Source of the DNA: Zoogloeaceae bacterium
Lineage (GTDB): Bacteria; Pseudomonadota; Gammaproteobacteria; Burkholderiales; Rhodocyclaceae
DNA length: 50,952 bases
NCBI GenBank assembly: GCA_031256795.1
Contig: JAIRPW010000040.1
Coordinates: 1-50,952 of the forward strand
Direction of reading: 5' to 3'
A program made the position numbers and the translations under genes. Under the pieces are notes generated by a model. The model ran no database searches and was not told the origin of the DNA. It saw nothing but the letters and a program-made list of their open reading frames with translations. Position 1 is the stretch's first letter. The number at the start of each line of letters is the position of its first letter. Shown here piece after piece: positions 9,021 to 48,495 of this stretch.

Positions 9021-9455
9021 ATGAATTTTTCCAAAAGACGCGGTAGCGAAGAGCCGGAAATCAATTTGATTCCCTTGATTGACGTGCTTTTGGTCGTCAT
9101 TATTTTCTTGATGCTGACGACGACCTATACGCGCTTCTCCAGTCTGGAAATTACTTTGCCGTCCGCTGAGGCGGAAACGCCGGACGTCAAAAAAACGAAC
9201 GACATTGAAGTGGATATAACCACTGACGGACAAATATCGGTTGCGGGAGAAACCCTGAAAACTCCGGAGCCGCGTTTTATCAGCGAGGCCATGCAGCGCG
9301 CGGCAAAAGGCAGGGAGGACCCGATCATCATCATCAACTCGGACGCCAAAACCGCCTATCAGAGCGTAGTCGACGTCATGCAGGCGGCGCAGATGGCGGG
9401 CTATCCGCGCATTTCCTTTACCGCCCAAAGCATCCCTGGTTCTGCCGATCATTGA
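9021..9455 (+). CDS. exbD: ExbD/TolR-type biopolymer transport protein
   Basis: The 144-residue partner of ExbB has a single N-terminal transmembrane helix (INLIPLIDVLLVVIIFLML) with the essential membrane Asp in PLIDVL, then a periplasmic ExbD/TolR domain. The start ATG 9021 follows GGAGAAGGAGCGAAGC, an excellent ribosome binding site. Its stop overlaps a TTG that could begin lpxK, implying co-translation. It works with exbB as a 5:2-type proton-driven motor. Whether the motor serves TonB or another system cannot be told here. Confidence 0.92.
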   Translation: MNFSKRRGSEEPEINLIPLIDVLLVVIIFLMLTTTYTRFSSLEITLPSAEAETPDVKKTNDIEVDITTDGQISVAGETLKTPEPRFISEAMQRAAKGREDPIIIINSDAKTAYQSVVDVMQAAQMAGYPRISFTAQSIPGSADH

Positions 9456-9472
9456 TTGTCGGCGGTTTTCTC

Positions 9473-10498
9473 ATGCGCAGATTGGCGGAGTGGCTTACCC
9501 GCGCCTGGTTTCAGCGGCGATTGCCGCTTTCTCTTTTGTGGGCGGCGCCGGTTGCCTTTGTTTTTTTCGGGTTGGCGGCGTCGCGCCGCGCCTTGTATCG
9601 CCGGAATATTCTGCGCGCGGAACGCTTGCCCGTTCCCGTGATTGTCATCGGCAATGTAACGCTGGGCGGCGCGGGGAAAACGCCTTTGACGCTGGCGATT
9701 GCGGAAATTTTGCGCGCGATGGGTTACCGCCCCGGCATGATAAGTCGCGGGTATCGCGGCCAGAATTCCACGCCGCGCCAGGTTTTTCCGGATTCCTCCG
9801 CTGCGGAGTGCGGCGATGAACCGGTACTTCTGGCAAGACGGAGCGGTCTGCCCGTGTGGATTGGCCGTGATCGCGCGAAGGCAGGAAAGGCGCTTTTGGC
9901 TGCCGCGCCTTCTGTGGATGTGATTTTGTGTGATGATGGTTTGCAGCACTACAGCTTGCAGCGTGATTTGGAGATAGCCGTGTTTGACGGGCGCGGCGCG
10001 GGCAACGGCTGGCTTTTGCCGGCAGGCCCTCTGCGTGAGCCGGTCTCGCGCCTTGCGTCGGTTGGCGCGATCGTGACGCATGGCGATCCTGATTTCCCGC
10101 GTGATTCGCAATCTCTGCCCGCGCGCTTTGCCGCGCGGTTTACTTTTGGGATGGCCTATCGTCTGGGCGCGCAGGAGGTTTGCCTGCATACTGCGGAGCT
10201 GATTCGGCGGTATCCTGACGCGATTTGGCAAGCCGTCGCGGGCATGGGAAATCCTGCGCGGTTTTTCCGCGCGTTGGATGCGTTAGGGTTTAGGTTTGCG
10301 CCGCGCCCTTTTCCTGATCATCATTCATACCATCTGTCTGATCTGGGATTCGCGTCGGCAGGCCCTGTCATCATGACGGAAAAAGATGCGGTAAAATGCG
10401 CCGCGCTGGGACTTGCCGACGCTTGGGTTTTGCCGGTTTCCATGCTCTTGCCGCCTGAATTTCCCCGCTTTCTGAAGGAAAAACTGAATGGACGCTAA
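9473..10498 (+). CDS. lpxK: Tetraacyldisaccharide 4'-kinase
   Basis: LpxK phosphorylates the 4' position of the lipid A disaccharide at the inner membrane. The 341-residue product has an N-terminal membrane anchor (LLWAAPVAFVFFGLAASRR), then a P-loop-like GNVTLGGAGKTPLTLA (from residue 60) and MISRGYRG. The DDGLQH motif of the family is present. ATG 9473 is chosen; a TTG at 9452 overlapping the exbD stop is possible and adds seven residues. The stop overlaps the start of the Trm112-like gene by 11 bases. Length is close to the usual 325-340. Confidence 0.93.
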   Translation: MRRLAEWLTRAWFQRRLPLSLLWAAPVAFVFFGLAASRRALYRRNILRAERLPVPVIVIGNVTLGGAGKTPLTLAIAEILRAMGYRPGMISRGYRGQNSTPRQVFPDSSAAECGDEPVLLARRSGLPVWIGRDRAKAGKALLAAAPSVDVILCDDGLQHYSLQRDLEIAVFDGRGAGNGWLLPAGPLREPVSRLASVGAIVTHGDPDFPRDSQSLPARFAARFTFGMAYRLGAQEVCLHTAELIRRYPDAIWQAVAGMGNPARFFRALDALGFRFAPRPFPDHHSYHLSDLGFASAGPVIMTEKDAVKCAALGLADAWVLPVSMLLPPEFPRFLKEKLNGR

Positions 10499-23798: not shown

Positions 23799-25025
23799 AT
23801 GGTTTTCTCCTTTTTCAGAAAAAACGAGACGGAAACTCCGGCGCAGAAGACGGCGCGCCCTGTGGCGCAGAAGCCCGCGCCTGTTGCGAATTCCAGGCAG
23901 ACAGGGAAAGGCAGTCCTCAGGGCGTGAACGCAGAGGTAAGCGCGGGTTCCGGTAGTTCTGCGGCGGCGGATGATTGGTCGCTTGATTTCTCCGTGACCA
24001 TGAATCGCGGTGCGGGCATTGAGCTTTTTGAAGAAACCGATCCTTACGCGGAGATTGCTGAACATGCGGCGATTTCTTATGCCAATGGTCAGACTGGCGT
24101 GGCGCGGTCCACGCTGGAGAACGCGATCCATGGAAATGGCGAGCCGGGGGCTGTGCGTTTGTGGCACATGCTTTTTGATCTTTTGCGGGTGACGGGAGAC
24201 CAATCTGCCTTTGAGCTTCTGGGCATGGATTTTGCGCGGGTTTGTGAGTTGTCGCCGCCTTCTTGGAGCGTTGAGCCGGCGGAGAAGGAGAATCCTCCGA
24301 TGATGGCGCCGCTTGATATGGGCGGCGGAGTGATCGCCTTGCAGGGAGTCCTGCTGAGCGACAATCCGGCGTTGGACGAGATGCGGCGGATATTGGCGAA
24401 GAAAGCGCCCTGCCGGCTGGATTTTCGGAGATTGGCTGGGGTAGATGCGGACGCGGCGTCGATGCTGTCGGGCATTCTAGGCGAGGCGCGCAAAAAGGAT
24501 TTGGCATGGGGATTGTCGTACGCGCGTTCGTTTTCGGACCGTTTGGCTTTGCGGATTGCCAGTGGACAAGTGCAGGAAGCCTCTCTTTGGCAGTTACAGC
24601 TGGAGTTGCTGTTGTTTTTGGGGGATGAGAATACTTTTGAGGAGCGGGCGGTGGATTATGCGGTGAAGTTTGAATTATCGCCGCCGTCATGGGAACCGCC
24701 CAAAAAACCGCCGATGATCCCTGAAAGCGAGGATGCGGGAAGCGGATCGGATATTGCCGCGGACGAGGTATCCATGCGCCTGGAGGGCGATCTTTTGCAG
24801 GGGAATTTGGGCGCGGTACAGGCCTTGCTCAAGTCGGGCGAAGAGACGCGCTTGGATTTTTCCGGGGTGCGGCGCTTGGATTTCGTGAGCGCCGGGATGT
24901 TGGCGACCTTGTTAAAAGAAGCGGGCGGCAAAGCGGTGATTGTCCATCCCAATTATCTGGTTGCGGAATTGTTGCGTGTTATGGGCGTAGATCAGGTCGC
25001 GCGTTTGGAAATTGCCAAACATTGA
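23799..25025 (+). CDS. STAS-domain protein with an internal repeat, next to hslVU
   Basis: This is a 408-residue cytoplasmic protein without known catalytic motifs. A Pro/Ala/Gln linker fills the first 60 residues. Two similar modules follow, each with a helical stretch ending ELSPPSW (one near residue 150, one near 305). Each helical module is followed by an acidic linker and a STAS-like beta-alpha unit: VIALQGVLLSDN to LDFRRLAGVDADAASMLSGI, and MRLEGDLLQGN to LDFSGVRRLDFVSAGMLATL. STAS domains (anti-sigma antagonist fold) often mediate regulated protein contacts. The usual phosphorylated Ser position reads DADAAS and DFVSAG. It is 21 bases before hslV, as seen in several betaproteobacteria. 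The function is unproven. Confidence 0.8.
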   Translation: MVFSFFRKNETETPAQKTARPVAQKPAPVANSRQTGKGSPQGVNAEVSAGSGSSAAADDWSLDFSVTMNRGAGIELFEETDPYAEIAEHAAISYANGQTGVARSTLENAIHGNGEPGAVRLWHMLFDLLRVTGDQSAFELLGMDFARVCELSPPSWSVEPAEKENPPMMAPLDMGGGVIALQGVLLSDNPALDEMRRILAKKAPCRLDFRRLAGVDADAASMLSGILGEARKKDLAWGLSYARSFSDRLALRIASGQVQEASLWQLQLELLLFLGDENTFEERAVDYAVKFELSPPSWEPPKKPPMIPESEDAGSGSDIAADEVSMRLEGDLLQGNLGAVQALLKSGEETRLDFSGVRRLDFVSAGMLATLLKEAGGKAVIVHPNYLVAELLRVMGVDQVARLEIAKH

Positions 25026-25046
25026 GCGAAATACAGGGCAAAAAGT

Positions 25047-25586
25047 ATGGAACACTATCACGGCACAACAATTGTGTCGGTACGGCGCGGCAGTTTGGTC
25101 GCAATGGGCGGGGATGGGCAGGTTACGTTGGGAAACGTCGTGATCAAGCAGGGGGCGCGCAAAATTCGCCGTGTGTATCAGGAGCGTATTTTGGCGGGCT
25201 TTGCGGGCGCGACGGCGGATGCTTTTACCTTGCTGGAGTTATTTGAGTCCAAGCTGGAAAAACACCAGGGCAATTTACTGCGCGGCGCGGTGGAATTGGC
25301 GAAGGACTGGCGGACAGATCGTATGCTGCGGCGCTTGGAGGCCATGCTGATTGTCGCGGATGTGGAACGTACACTGGTGATTACCGGCAATGGGGACGTT
25401 TTGGAGCCTGAATATGGGGTTGCCGCGATTGGTTCGGGCGGGGTATATGCGCAGAGCGCCGCGCGCGCGCTTTTGGAGAATACAGAGCTGTCTCCGCTGG
25501 AGATCGTGCAAAAGTCTTTGGGGATTGCCGCGGAGATGTGCATTTATACAAACCACAACTTTACGTTGGAGCAGTTGGGCGAATGA
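25047..25586 (+). CDS. hslV: ATP-dependent protease proteolytic subunit HslV
   Basis: HslV is the proteasome-like peptidase of the HslUV complex. In the 179-residue product the N-terminal nucleophile Thr is exposed by processing within [58 protein letters not shown] and a C-terminal [12 protein letters not shown] are family signatures. ATG 25047 follows ACAGGGCAAAAAGT. Its TGA overlaps the hslU ATG (ATGA), coupling production of the two subunits. Confidence 0.97.
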
Positions 25587-26953
25587 GCATTGAAAAAGCG
25601 GAGCAGGCGGAAGGCGCGTCGTTGATGACGCCGCGGGAGATCGTGCATGAGTTGGACAAACATATTGTCGGGCAGGCAGACGCCAAGAAGGCGGTAGCGA
25701 TCGCCTTGCGCAATCGCTGGCGTCGGTCGTGTGTAGCGGAGCCTTTGCGTTCGGAAATCACGCCGAAGAATATTTTAATGATCGGCCCTACCGGCGTAGG
25801 GAAAACGGAGATTGCGCGGCGGCTGGCGCGCTTGTCAGGCGCGCCTTTCGTCAAGGTGGAAGCGACGAAGTTTACCGAGGTAGGCTATGTTGGGCGGGAT
25901 GTTGATACCATCATTCGTGATTTGACGGAGGTAGCGGTCAAAAACCAGCGCGAGAAGGCCATGCGTGAAGTGCGCGTTCGGGCGGAGGACGCGGCGGAGG
26001 ATCGGGTGCTGGACGCGCTTTTGCCGCCGGCGCGCAGCGCGGGTTTTTTTGCGGAAAACGGAGAGGACGCCGAGGAGAGCGGCACGAGGCAAAAATTCCG
26101 CAAAAAGCTGCGGGAAGGCGCCTTGGATGAAAAGGAAATAGATATTGAGGTGGCTTTGCCGTCCGTGCAGACAGAAATTTTCGCGCCGCCGGGCATGGAG
26201 GAGCTAACGAGTCAGATTCAGGGCATGTTTCAAAACCTGTCGGGGGGGCGTAACAAGAGCCGCCGGATTCGGGTGCGCGAGGCTTTGAAATTGTTGGCGG
26301 AGGAAGAGGCGGCGAAATTGATCAGCGATGAAAACGTAAAACTTGCGGCGTTAAAGAATGTGGAGCAGAACGGCATTGTTTTTCTGGATGAGATTGATAA
26401 GGTAGCGAGCCGGGGGAGCCGGGAGGGGGCGGATGTTTCCCGGCAGGGGGTGCAGCGGGATTTGTTGCCGCTGGTAGAGGGGACTGCGGTTTCCACGCGC
26501 TATGGCATGGTGAAGACGGATCATATTTTGTTTATTGCGTCTGGCGCGTTTCATTTGGCGAAGCCGTCGGACTTAATTCCTGAGTTGCAGGGGCGTTTTC
26601 CGATCAGGGTAGAGCTGAATTCCTTGTCCATTGCGGACTTTAAGCGCATTTTGACGTCTACGGACGCTTGTTTAACCCGTCAGTACCAGGCGCTTTTGGA
26701 AACGGAAGGAGTTGAGCTTGTTTTTGCGGACGACGGGATTGACCGTCTGGCGGAAATTGCGTTTCAGGTGAATGAGAAAACGGAGAATATTGGCGCGCGC
26801 CGTTTGTATACCGTGCTGGAAAAGCTATTGGAAGATATTTCATTTGAAGCGGGACGCGCGGGGATGGAATCGGTGGAGATTACTGCCGCTTATGTGGATG
26901 CGCGTCTGGAAAAGCTCGCCGCGAATGAGGACCTCTCGCGCTATATTCTGTAA
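25583..26953 (+). CDS. hslU: ATP-dependent protease ATPase subunit HslU
   Basis: This 456-residue AAA+ unfoldase feeds HslV. It has Walker A GPTGVGKT (68-75), the pore loop in [15 protein letters not shown], the intermediate I-domain (about 110-240), Walker [13 protein letters not shown], and a C-terminal LSRYIL tail that inserts into HslV. ATG 25583 overlaps the hslV stop. Heat-shock control is usual for hslVU, but I see no clear sigma32 promoter before hslV. Confidence 0.97.
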
Positions 26954-27309
26954 CGTTTGCCCGCGTTGCTTCCGCGCGGCTTTGGGGGGATGGCGGTACG
27001 CCGACAACGCGGGAAAAGATAGCGCATCAATCCGTGTGATTGCGGATGCGCGGGGTTTCTGCGTCAGCTCGCAAAGTTTTGCCTGCCGCAACGGCGGGCG
27101 AGGGTCGGGGGCAAAGATTCTGGATCACGTCGGTGTGCGGCGTAATTTTTGTTGACGTTGAGACTTATTATCATTTATAAATGCTTCCCATGAACAAAAG
27201 CAAGGTAGTGTAGGCAGGGCGGTTGTCGGCGTTGATCCTGTCGAGCGAAGTTTGCGACGCCGATGTCGTTATGTGATTCAGGCGGTTTTCTGAAAAGGAC
27301 CTTTCCGCG
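26954..27309. other. Intergenic region upstream of the feo operon
   Basis: These 356 bases contain no convincing gene. Around 27020-27053 an imperfect inverted repeat (GCGCATCAATCC with ATTGCGGATGCGC) may end hslU transcription without a clear T-run. The right part turns AT-rich and holds the feo promoter. The 27180-27309 leader has no obvious riboswitch fold. Confidence 0.5.
27152..27181 (+). promoter_or_regulatory. Probable feo promoter with an overlapping Fur box
   Basis: TTGACG (27152-27157), an 18-base spacer and TATAAA (27176-27181) form a sigma70-like promoter. The overlapping stretch around 27160-27178, read on the minus strand, contains AATGATAATAAG and matches the 19-base Fur consensus at about 13 positions by my hand alignment. 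Repression by Fur-Fe is what one expects for ferrous uptake genes. Confidence 0.5.
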
Positions 27310-27546
27310 ATGAATGCTGTTATTTCCATGCCGCTTTCTCTGCTTATGCCGGGTGAGCGGGCGCGTGTGGCGCGTTTTCCCTCTGGAGAGGAAGCGCAGA
27401 AACGCTTGGCGGGCATGGGGATCCGACCGGGGTGTGAAATTGAAATCATGCTATGCAGCGGCGATCAGCTTGTGCTGGCATTGGATCATGCCCGCATTGC
27501 GCTTCCGCGCGCGTTGGCGCAGAAAATCCTGGTTTCCTCTGTTTGA
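27310..27546 (+). CDS. feoA: FeoA-domain protein (first copy)
   Basis: This 78-residue SH3-like cytoplasmic protein has the features of FeoA: SLLMPGERARVARF, the RLAGMGIRPGCEIEIM core and a C-terminal LALDHARIALPRALAQKILV. FeoA supports FeoB ferrous transport. A second feoA follows 10 bases later, a common tandem arrangement. The tandem copies differ strongly, so they are not a recent duplication. Confidence 0.9.
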   Translation: MNAVISMPLSLLMPGERARVARFPSGEEAQKRLAGMGIRPGCEIEIMLCSGDQLVLALDHARIALPRALAQKILVSSV

Positions 27547-27556
27547 AAGGATGAAT

Positions 27557-27793
27557 ATGTATCTGGGACATCTGCAGGTGGGTCAAAAAGCGAAAGTTGT
27601 CGGGTTTATCAAGGACAAACTAAATCGTGCCTATAGACAAAAATTGCTCTCCATGGGGCTGACTCCCGGCGTGGAAATTTCAGTTTTGCGCGTTGCGCCT
27701 TTGGGGGACCCTGTGGAAATTGAGGTGCGTGGATTTTCGTTGAGTCTGCGCAAGGACGAAGCGGCGGCACTGGAGGTCAGTCAGCGCGCCTGA
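27557..27793 (+). CDS. feoA: FeoA-domain protein (second copy)
   Basis: This 78-residue FeoA-family protein reads MYLGHLQVGQKAKVVGFIKD, then RQKLLSMGLTPGVEISVLRV and PVEIEVRGFSLSLRKDEAAAL, all typical of FeoA. I chose ATG 27557 because AAAGGATGAAT sits at proper distance; ATG 27551 is too close to it. Lies 38 bases upstream of feoB. Confidence 0.92.
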   Translation: MYLGHLQVGQKAKVVGFIKDKLNRAYRQKLLSMGLTPGVEISVLRVAPLGDPVEIEVRGFSLSLRKDEAAALEVSQRA

Positions 27794-27831
27794 CGGATTT
27801 TCTTTAAAAATAGCCATGGCAGGTACATACG

Positions 27832-30210
27832 ATGCGTGAAAAATCCCCTTTGACTATCGCGCTTTTGGGCAATCCCAATTGCGGCAAGACAACCCTCTTT
27901 AACGCTTTGACGGGCGCGCGCCAGAAAGTAGGCAATTGGCCGGGGGTGACCGTAGAAAAGAAAAGCGGGCGTTTTACACAGGACGGACGCGACATTGATG
28001 TTGTGGATTTGCCTGGCATTTACTCGCTGGACATAGCGGGCGAAGGCTCTCTGGATGAGCGCGTTGCGCGGGAATTTGCTCTTTCTGGCGAGGCTGACCT
28101 GATTGTCAATATTCTGGATGCGTCCAATCTGGAGCGCAATTTGTATCTTACGGCGCAGCTGCTGGAAATGCGCGTGCCAATGCTGGTGGCGCTCAATATG
28201 TGCGACGTGGCGGATGAGCGCGGCGTGGCAGTGGATGCGGACGCGCTTTCCCAGGCTCTGGGTTGTCCGGTTGTTGCGCTGGTAGCCAAGGAAAAGCAGG
28301 GCGTTGAGGCGTTGAAAACTTTACTGGCGACGACGGAGCGTTTCGTCGTGCCGACGGCGCGTCCAGGTTTTCCGGATAGACTTGCGACGGCGATAGATGC
28401 GGCGCGGACGCTCACCGACGCTTTGCTGCCGGAACACATGGACGCGGATTGGGCGGCGCAAAAAGCGCTGGAAGGCGATGCGGGCGTTTTGGCTTGTTTT
28501 TCGGAGTTGGACGCGAGCGGGCGGGATTTTTTGGCGCGTACGCGGCAGAGTGTGGAAGCCGCGCTGGGCGATGATTTGGATGTAATCGCGGCGGACGCGC
28601 GGTACGCTTTTATTGCGGATTTGGTTGCGCGGACCATGCGGCGCGGCGCGGCAAAGCGCGCGCGCAGCCTTTCGGATCGTGTGGATCAGGTGGTGCTGAA
28701 CCGCGCTTTGGGCATTCCGATTTTTTTCTTCATGATGTATTTGATGTTCCTGTTCACCATTCATTTGGGCGGAGCTTTTATTGATTTTTTTGACGGCCTG
28801 GCTGAGCTTGTGTTCGTAAAGGGTCTGGGGTATTGGCTTTCCGCGATGGGCTCCCCGGAATGGCTGAAGGTGCTTCTGGCGGATGGCATTGGCGGCGGTT
28901 TGCAGACGGTGGCGAGTTTTATCCCGATTATTGGGTTTTTGTTTCTTTTTCTCTCTTTGCTGGAGGATTCCGGCTATATGGCGCGCGCGGCCTTTGTCAT
29001 GGATCGTTTCATGCGTTTTGTGGGCTTGCCGGGGAAATCTTTCGTGCCGCTGATTGTCGGTTTCGGCTGTAATGTGCCGTCGGTGATGGCGGCGCGCACT
29101 CTGGAAGGAGAGCGGGATCGTCTGATGACCATCGCGATGTCGCCGTTTATGTCTTGCGGCGCGCGCTTGACTGTGTATGTCTTGTTTGCGGCAGCCTTTT
29201 TCCCGCAGGGCGGACAGAATCTCGTTTTTCTGCTGTATCTCGTGGGCATTGCCGTAGCGGTGCTGACGGGCATGGCCTTGAGGCATACGCTGTTGCAGGG
29301 GCAGAGTACGCCTTTTATTCTGGAATTGCCGCCCTATCACATGCCGACGATTAAAGGGGTGATTCTGCATTCCTGGCATCGTCTCTCCGCCTTTATTTTC
29401 AAGGCGGGAAAAATTATTGTGCCGATGGTAATGGTGTTGAACATTCTGAACGCGATGGGGACGGACGGCAGCTTTGGGCATGAGGACAGCGAGGATTCCA
29501 TGCTGTCCTCCATCAGCCGCCGCATCGCGCCTGCTTTTTCGCCGATAGGCGTGACGGAAGAGAATTGGCCGGCGGCGGTTGGTATTTTCACGGGCATTTT
29601 GGCGAAGGAAGCGGTGGTGGGTACGCTGGATGCGCTATATGGGCAGGTGGCGGCAAGCGAGGAGAAAGCGGCCAGGGACGCGGAAGGCGAAGAGAGCGAA
29701 ACAGAAGAGGAAGCCGCGCCGGATTTTCTGGCGTCCATGAAGGAAGTCGCCGCGACGATCCCGGAAAACTTGAGCGCGCTTTCGGAGAAACTTCTTGATC
29801 CTTTAGGCTTGAGCGTGGGAGAAATTGAGGACAAGGATGCGTCTGCGGAAGCGCAGGGCGTTTCGGTCGACACCTTTTCCGCGATGCAGCGGATGTTTGG
29901 CGGCACGGCGGCGGCGTTTTCTTATTTGGTGCTGATTCTGCTGTATTTCCCTTGCGTTGCTGTGCTGGGCGCTGTTCGTCAGGAGGTCGGGGTTCGCTGG
30001 GCGTTGTTTGTGTCATTCTGGAGTATCGCTTTGGGTTATGGCGCGGCTACGCTGTGCTATCAATTCCTGACCTTTGCGGAGCATCCGCTGAATTCCGTCC
30101 TTTGGGGCGCGGGGATTCTGGCCTTTCTTGCGCTGACGCTTTTGTGTATGCGCTGGTATGGCCAGAGGCAATGGAACGCCATGCCGCGTCTGGCGGAAGA
30201 GTCGGTGTAG
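27832..30210 (+). CDS. feoB: Ferrous iron transporter FeoB
   Basis: This 792-residue inner-membrane Fe(II) transporter has an N-terminal G domain: G1 GNPNCGKTT (13-21), G3 DLPGIYSL, G4 NMCD. A helical GDI-like domain follows, then a membrane part with two Gate/Nucleoside-recognition motifs (GFGCNVPSVMAART and the later GILAKEAVVGTLDALYG). A long acidic cytoplasmic insertion, EEKAARDAEGEESETEEEAA, precedes the last helices. Operon partners are two FeoA, FeoC and a cation exporter. Activity would be greatest where iron is ferrous, in anoxic or acidic settings. Confidence 0.97.
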   Translation: MREKSPLTIALLGNPNCGKTTLFNALTGARQKVGNWPGVTVEKKSGRFTQDGRDIDVVDLPGIYSLDIAGEGSLDERVAREFALSGEADLIVNILDASNLERNLYLTAQLLEMRVPMLVALNMCDVADERGVAVDADALSQALGCPVVALVAKEKQGVEALKTLLATTERFVVPTARPGFPDRLATAIDAARTLTDALLPEHMDADWAAQKALEGDAGVLACFSELDASGRDFLARTRQSVEAALGDDLDVIAADARYAFIADLVARTMRRGAAKRARSLSDRVDQVVLNRALGIPIFFFMMYLMFLFTIHLGGAFIDFFDGLAELVFVKGLGYWLSAMGSPEWLKVLLADGIGGGLQTVASFIPIIGFLFLFLSLLEDSGYMARAAFVMDRFMRFVGLPGKSFVPLIVGFGCNVPSVMAARTLEGERDRLMTIAMSPFMSCGARLTVYVLFAAAFFPQGGQNLVFLLYLVGIAVAVLTGMALRHTLLQGQSTPFILELPPYHMPTIKGVILHSWHRLSAFIFKAGKIIVPMVMVLNILNAMGTDGSFGHEDSEDSMLSSISRRIAPAFSPIGVTEENWPAAVGIFTGILAKEAVVGTLDALYGQVAASEEKAARDAEGEESETEEEAAPDFLASMKEVAATIPENLSALSEKLLDPLGLSVGEIEDKDASAEAQGVSVDTFSAMQRMFGGTAAAFSYLVLILLYFPCVAVLGAVRQEVGVRWALFVSFWSIALGYGAATLCYQFLTFAEHPLNSVLWGAGILAFLALTLLCMRWYGQRQWNAMPRLAEESV

Positions 30211-47292: not shown

Positions 47293-48495
47293 TTAGAGGA
47301 TCGCCTGAATGCCTCGGCTGTGACGTTCATTGGAAGACGCGAAAAGCCCGGAACAGTCCGCCCGGACGGCGCATGAGTTGCAGGCGTCAATATATATTTT
47401 TTTATAATCCGAAATGCTTTGTCGGGCAAACGGGCGCAATACGTGCGGAAGAACGCAAAGCGGAAGATTGTATAAAGAAAAAGGGATTCCGCGATAATGT
47501 AAGTATTTGACAGCGTCAGTCAGTTGTTTTTGATAATCAATGGGATCAATCCAAAGAAAATTCCAGTTTTTTTTCACATATCCCATGTTTTCCATACCCA
47601 TAAGCGCGATATGGCAGACAAAAGGAAAATTCCGGTATATAAAATCCATCAGAGAAACTAGGCGGGGTATGGTTTGTTTATGCAAGACAACCCGAATTTC
47701 CACGGTTAATCCGGCGCGCGCCGCGTTATACAGGCCTGATACGCTTTCCTGAAAGGCTCCGCGCGCCTGTACGATCCAGTCATGCAAAAACGAAGTATCG
47801 GAGTACAACGGAATTGCCGACAGAAAATTCTTTGGCGCGGCGGCAGCCAGGGCGCGGGTGAAAGCAAAATCCCGAAAACGGCGGCCATTCGTCAGCATGG
47901 TTACGGGAGTATCGGGAAAGCGTTCCGAAATAACGGACAAAAGCCTTACTAGATGATCTCCAAGTAATGTTGGTTCTCCGCCGCTGATTCCCAGATGACA
48001 GGGCGGATCACGAATGAATTCGAGCAGCTCAAAATGTTCCTTGATGAGCGAAGGAATGTGATCCTCTTTAGGGGGCTGCGGGCACATTATGCAGTTACTG
48101 TCGCATTGGCCGGTTGCGAAGATTGTGTTGAAGCGCGAGTCTGGTCGGTACAAAATATCTATGCGACCGTTTGGCGATATGGCGACAATCGCCCCTTCGC
48201 TTATGGACGCCAAGTTAGAAACGCCAAGAAGCAAAGGAATCGAGCCAATATTTTTAGGTGCGTCTAATGAAGGCGACAAAATCGCGGCATGGCCATGCAA
48301 TTCAGAAGGGGCTGCGGCGTCGTTTTCGGAACGCATGGATAGAACCGTCCGGACTCCCGGAGAAATCGAAGCGCCAGGGAAAACCACGCGCGCAAGAAAT
48401 CTCTTTGTGACCTCCGTGCCGTTAGAAATTACCTGCCTATCCTTTTCCGATACAGGAAACACATTCCCGCTCGGCACAGCTTTTTCCTTCGTCAT
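47293..48495 (-). CDS. hxsC: Radical SAM maturase of the His-Xaa-Ser system (HxsC-like)
   Basis: The 400-residue product has a radical SAM CxxxCxxC cluster: Cys131, Cys135 and Cys138 in CDSNCIMCPQPPKEDH, a sequence distinctive of HxsC. GISGGEPTLLG is the GGE motif. A C-terminal auxiliary cysteine group (Cys372, Cys375, Cys381 in CNSCAVRADC) is followed by NERHSRGIQAI, also typical. The start is ATG 48495, seven bases after AGGAGG; ATG 48501 is too close to it. HxsC normally works with HxsB on the HxsA/HxsD peptides; none is visible here. It follows a phage virion-type gene by 19 bases on the same strand. Codon use is less GC-biased than in the flagellar genes. The peptide it modifies is unknown. 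Confidence 0.85.
   Translation of the reverse strand: MTKEKAVPSGNVFPVSEKDRQVISNGTEVTKRFLARVVFPGASISPGVRTVLSMRSENDAAAPSELHGHAAILSPSLDAPKNIGSIPLLLGVSNLASISEGAIVAISPNGRIDILYRPDSRFNTIFATGQCDSNCIMCPQPPKEDHIPSLIKEHFELLEFIRDPPCHLGISGGEPTLLGDHLVRLLSVISERFPDTPVTMLTNGRRFRDFAFTRALAAAAPKNFLSAIPLYSDTSFLHDWIVQARGAFQESVSGLYNAARAGLTVEIRVVLHKQTIPRLVSLMDFIYRNFPFVCHIALMGMENMGYVKKNWNFLWIDPIDYQKQLTDAVKYLHYRGIPFSLYNLPLCVLPHVLRPFARQSISDYKKIYIDACNSCAVRADCSGLFASSNERHSRGIQAIL

Follow-up and report, generated by a model that had tools for sequence, protein, structure and literature searches.

The gene at positions 47293..48495 of the stretch analysed here (the window, 50,952 nucleotides, which is the entire contig C40 of a 2.1 Mb genome in 51 contigs, 99% complete) encodes the peptide-modifying enzyme HxsC, and we consider it, with a probability of about 80%, to be the stranded end gene of an ordinary five-gene Hxs operon that was broken up by mobile DNA. 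A sequence-only reading of the window had proposed that either the system lost its partners, or HxsC on its own serves a phage in modifying a virion or small peptide. The first proposal holds in so far as hxsC is stranded, but another contig (C21) of the same genome retains hxsD, a portion of hxsB and a frame resembling hxsA; the second, tempting claim is corrected by the reading as a stranded gene. The protein belongs to a known family, its operon is broken, and its start may derive from a fusion with a phage gene.

The hxsC gene and its surroundings

The 400-aa frame lies on the minus strand, with its ATG at 48495-48493 and its stop codon ending at 47293 (Table 1). In the profile search that had been suggested as a check, it matched the TIGR03977 (HxsC) model with 362.6 bits (E 1e-108; protein residues 98-388, model positions 2-292 of 292), exceeding the curated cut-off of 267.9 bits across the whole model and bearing out the earlier assignment, and it also matched phrog_15140 (353.7 bits). 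Every motif quoted for that assignment was found in the protein. The radical-SAM CxxxCxxC cysteines (C131, C135 and C138) and the later, C-terminal cysteines (C347, C372, C375 and C381) occur in every one of the 12 aligned HxsC proteins, that of the window among them. Judged by its sequence, the gene is a genuine HxsC gene, structurally complete in appearance. Among the 42 columns that are ≥95% conserved in the other proteins of a 96-HxsC alignment, 38 are retained by the window HxsC and 39 by its relative from the MAG labelled Azoarcus sp. Cf509_bin17 (median HxsC 42/42). Unique changes numbered 10 in the window HxsC versus 7 in Cf509_bin17 with the consensus as outgroup, and 29:14, 24:15, 20:15, 19:15, 28:14 and 16:19 (window:Cf509_bin17) with six single outgroups; these counts demonstrate decay neither way.

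Both the AGGAGG ribosome-binding site and the same-strand phage virion-type gene 19 bases away, as previously noted, were confirmed, with the site located inside the 19-base gap that separates hxsC from the stop codon (48517-48515) of a phage head-to-tail adaptor homologue. Between hxsC and the contig edge lie three genes, all on the same strand, namely this adaptor homologue, a phrog_16819 protein and an LPD3 gene. On the opposite side, a scrap of a type IIG (MmeI-like) enzyme, aligning to positions 865-910 of the 912 in the PDLC03598 profile, sits between hxsC and the same-strand genes that we take, by sequence recognition, to be flhB and flhA of the flagellar operon. Downstream of hxsC, Pfam-type and PHROG profile searches of the contig C40 frames detected neither a sheath gene nor any other phage gene, and hxsC is not flanked by phage genes on both sides.

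Table 1. Features of the window (contig C40) and of the tip of contig C21
Feature	Contig	Position	Strand	Basis and remarks
Type IIG (MmeI-like) restriction-methylation enzyme, C-terminal scrap, 66 aa	C40	47021..47221	minus	PF20467 41 bits; PDLC03598
hxsC, 400 aa	C40	48495..47293	minus	TIGR03977 362.6 bits; catalytic cysteines retained (alignment)
First 31 hxsC codons	C40	48403..48495	minus	Without DNA match to the Cf509_bin17 operon; first 8 residues gp080-like
AGGAGG ribosome-binding site	C40	48508-48503	minus	Read directly; in the adaptor-hxsC gap
Full-length homologue of phage head-to-tail adaptors, 276 aa	C40	48515..49345	minus	tblastn, 9 phage records; PHB04/ST4 alignment
Homologue of Aeromonas phage ST4 gene 082	C40	49394..50167	minus	phrog_16819, E 3.1e-35; 22 phage records
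LPD3-domain gene, cut off by contig end	C40	50154..50951	minus	PF18798 51.1 bits; open at edge
Second HxsD-like frame (orf77, 77 aa)	C21	488-721		NF038315 22.5 bits, beneath cut-off 41
hxsD	C21	759-1013		68.3 bits, cut-off 50
hxsA-like frame	C21	1402-1094		Six H-x-S triplets; 47% identity to Cf509_bin17 frame

The remaining hxs genes at the tip of contig C21

The search for partner genes proposed earlier was run genome-wide; it placed hxsD and a partial hxsB solely on C21, where the open frames also include an hxsA-like one. Among the 533 window frames of ≥30 aa, the maximum was three scattered H-x-S triplets, in a single frame (9452-10498, 348 aa). The frame order at the C21 tip is lolA, an HxS-repeat protein, hxsD, the 77-aa HxsD-like frame orf77 and a truncated hxsB. 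The HxS-repeat protein, our hxsA-like frame, scored 32.1 bits against TIGR03979, beneath the cut-off of 121.65. A functional Hxs system would be expected to include hxsD, which is present on C21, and to have hxsB beside hxsC, an arrangement not found in this genome. The G+C content is 49% in hxsC, 50% in both hxsD and orf77 and 45% in the hxsB fragment, and 59% in lolA and flhB; values are, however, also low in two of the three phage-type genes, the adaptor (53%) and LPD3 (51%) genes, and not low in hxsA (56%), and low G+C is thus not special to the hxs genes.

An unbroken hxsA-hxsD-orf77-hxsB-hxsC run is present in Cf509_bin17 (JAIRPB010000030.1, locus L123), whose HxsC was the first-ranked relative among the best 80 of at least 342 in an HxsC-alignment scan of genome_contigs. 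Identities to its products were 47% for hxsA (93 aa), 65% for hxsD (111 aa), 54% for orf77 (76 aa), 71% for HxsB (first 110 aa) and 73% for HxsC (379 aa, residues 21-399), and its orf77 counterpart (1901-2134) lies between hxsD and hxsB, as in C21. With the Cf509_bin17 protein as query, orf77-like frames were seen at two other loci (L146 and L180) among 101. We take the C21 and C40 pieces, on these sequence likenesses, to be one former operon, which would have consisted of hxsA, hxsD, the second HxsD-like gene, hxsB and hxsC and was probably acquired horizontally. The assembly does not link the two contigs: no 15-mer was common to the terminal 150 bases of either one and the 4-kb ends of the remaining contigs, and synteny near lolA and flhB across the genus was uninformative.

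The hxsB fragment corresponds to the first 100 model positions, about the first quarter of the gene, in the whole-genome profile search, and reads to CNQSCPY, one residue short of the third radical-SAM cysteine, after which the sequence changes. With Cf509_bin17 HxsB as query against the whole assembly (E up to 1), only residues 6-127 were matched, on C21, and the remainder of hxsB is absent from the assembly. The smallest contig in the assembly is 7,697 bp, so that a short contig carrying the 3′ part may have been dropped. The fragment also has an in-frame TAG upstream, which we do not take as inactivating since a start at MPFRF coincides with the beginning of the model.

The hxsB break is followed by a 119-base, hairpin-rich end (z -2.64; 3 of 200 shuffles equally good), for which an Rfam search gave no RNA match. 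The C21 tip matched 202 plasmid records, with nine of the ten rows listed annotated as TnpB or transposase, and seven of the 20 genus genomes, the window's own among them, carry its sequence. We read it as the right end of a TnpB element, presumably of the IS200/IS605 family, that interrupts hxsB, with tnpB itself beyond the contig end; such an insertion would have broken the operon.

As HxsB ends before the third cluster cysteine, the Hxs system is most likely inactive, with the stranded HxsC still complete-looking; the HxS peptide would no longer be matured by an HxsB without its full cluster motif and catalytic domain. The split system could alternatively be partly working, with HxsC acting in trans on the C21 HxsA alongside HxsD and its HxsD-like companion but in the absence of HxsB, as the hxsA-like frame, hxsD, orf77 and hxsC are all open and the HxsC cysteines are retained. 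The break in HxsB, the location of hxsC outside a shared operon, and the presence of hxsB at 76 of 80 genome loci with hxsC (the best 80 of at least 342 HxsC relatives) make this quite unlikely.

The phage fragment and the start of the hxsC frame

The stranded hxsC now has directly upstream of it a fragment of a PHB04/ST4-type phage that would end at the adaptor gene. In such phages a small gene, here named gp080 after ST4, comes after the adaptor, and the tail sheath gene comes next; this order was found in all seven named phages fetched (ST4, PHB04 and five more), counting phiT5282EW, in which genes of the same size at the gp080 and sheath places are annotated as hypothetical. Among 47 viral contigs with the adaptor, gp080 was present in all and the sheath in 46, which are all 46 that have ≥600 bases of room. 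The 19-base distance from adaptor to hxsC falls within the range of gaps between adaptor and gp080 (-8 to 55 bases in the 46 viral contigs with a start found).

The DNA match between hxsC and Cf509_bin17 begins at 48402, which is codon 32 of the hxsC frame. The first 31 HxsC residues showed no significant likeness to seven gp080 proteins (552 of 1000 shuffles as good). When, after this negative comparison, just the first 8 residues were anchored and scored against 39 distinct gp080 starts, the score was equalled by 9 of 948 control starts, the controls being mechanical open frames and the gp080 starts being chosen by rule (ATG given priority, then the smallest deviation from 12 bases after the adaptor). 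We therefore place the join inside the first ~31 hxsC codons, where it probably lies just within the phage gp080, and an in-frame gp080-HxsC fusion is plausible from the sequence, in which the ribosome-binding site and start of gp080 would lead into an almost complete HxsC.

A draft in 51 contigs, with sequence in common between several contig tips, could contain an assembly chimera at this join, with hxsC truly located behind hxsB next to C21, and the similar divergence of hxsC and the hxsB fragment from Cf509_bin17 would fit this. The join nevertheless leaves the hxsC frame uninterrupted, its start resembles that of gp080 and lies where one would be expected, and hxsB is itself cut by the IS end, so that we regard a misassembly as unlikely. 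Very unlikely, too, is a gp080-HxsC chimera that is expressed from a phage late transcript and whose HxsC part acts independently of HxsB on a peptide of phage or host, which, if true, would represent a broken peptide-modification system taken over by a phage fragment.

Occurrence of hxsC elsewhere and comparison with known systems

The His-Xaa-Ser system was reportedly defined by Haft and Basu. A passage of PMC9062424 that cites Haft and Basu gives HxsB and HxsC as the presumed maturases of HxS-motif peptides, and an excerpt of PMC8446631 lists hxsA-hxsD among the genes of a Pseudomonas aeruginosa region, some of which are phage tail genes. In the open-licence literature we found no report of a stranded or phage-used HxsC.

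With hxsC matches in 5 of 150 genomes of the family, the window's own included, and in 1 of 20 of the genus, again its own, the hxs operon is patchy in its distribution. An HxsC relative is encoded on 434 records of the plasmids collection, of which Klebsiella accounts for 333. Four of the best 80 genome loci have no hxsB in the fetched stretch. One of these (L164) begins at a contig edge, and the other three have upstream room and represent hxsC without hxsB in Hymenobacter polaris (L173), a betaproteobacterial MAG (L178) and Legionella feeleii (L201), with short hxsC frames in L173 (294 aa) and L201 (342 aa). An HxsB above cut-off is lacking from all four of these genomes and present in that of Cf509_bin17. 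The H. polaris, betaproteobacterial and L. feeleii loci suggest that an orphaned hxsC arises more than once.

In viral_contigs, relatives were found with alignment queries and none with a single HxsC or single adaptor protein as query. HxsC-like frames are held by 19 of 21 viral loci, and hxsB was in the fetched stretch at 18 of these 19; the exception (L222) has an HxsC-like frame that is just 23% identical. The proposed survey of adaptor-hxsC adjacency, run on the 47 adaptor-bearing viral contigs with 4-kb flanks, found hxsC in none, the exact junction sequence had no match in viral_contigs, and the nine phage records with the adaptor do not overlap with the two that contain hxsC. A phage late operon carrying hxsC alone as cargo, for modification of a virion protein or small peptide, could account for the same-strand position and good ribosome-binding site 19 bases behind a full-length adaptor and for the retained catalytic residues, and phages do carry hxs genes (a complete operon in phage LE1, hxsC with hxsB in viral contigs). 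These viral surveys, the MmeI scrap and flagellar operon found downstream in place of sheath or tail genes, and the residence of the other operon genes in the same genome make such cargo very unlikely.

As a stranded gene, the window hxsC presents an Hxs operon coming apart, with an IS end in hxsB, phage debris before hxsC and the maturase left on its own, and orphan genes of this kind can mislead genome mining for peptide-modifying enzymes.

The contractile-tail morphogenesis module of ST4 and PHB04 shares with the window the adaptor and gene 082 homologues, which are adjacent in both, but such phages continue after the adaptor with gp080 and the tail sheath gene, where the window has hxsC instead. 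Gene 082 is opposite to the adaptor in the seven named phages fetched, whereas the two are co-directional in the window; among 44 viral contigs, they are co-directional in five (L282, L284, L296, L327 and L328) and opposite in the other 39. Elsewhere in the window's genome, a frame on a further contig (G000:C51, ~24300-28489; L120, L122) starts like ST4_091 and runs into other sequence, adjoining an apparent CRISPR array (judged by eye) at the contig end. Leptospira phage LE1 (KF114877) is a phage record with an hxs operon, complete and in the order hxsA-D-B-C, whose HxsC is 45% identical to that of the window, and the adaptor homologue was not found there at E 1e-3. A close counterpart is the operon of Cf509_bin17, which has the same extra HxsD-like gene as the window's genome but is unbroken, whereas in the window's genome the operon is split over two contigs.
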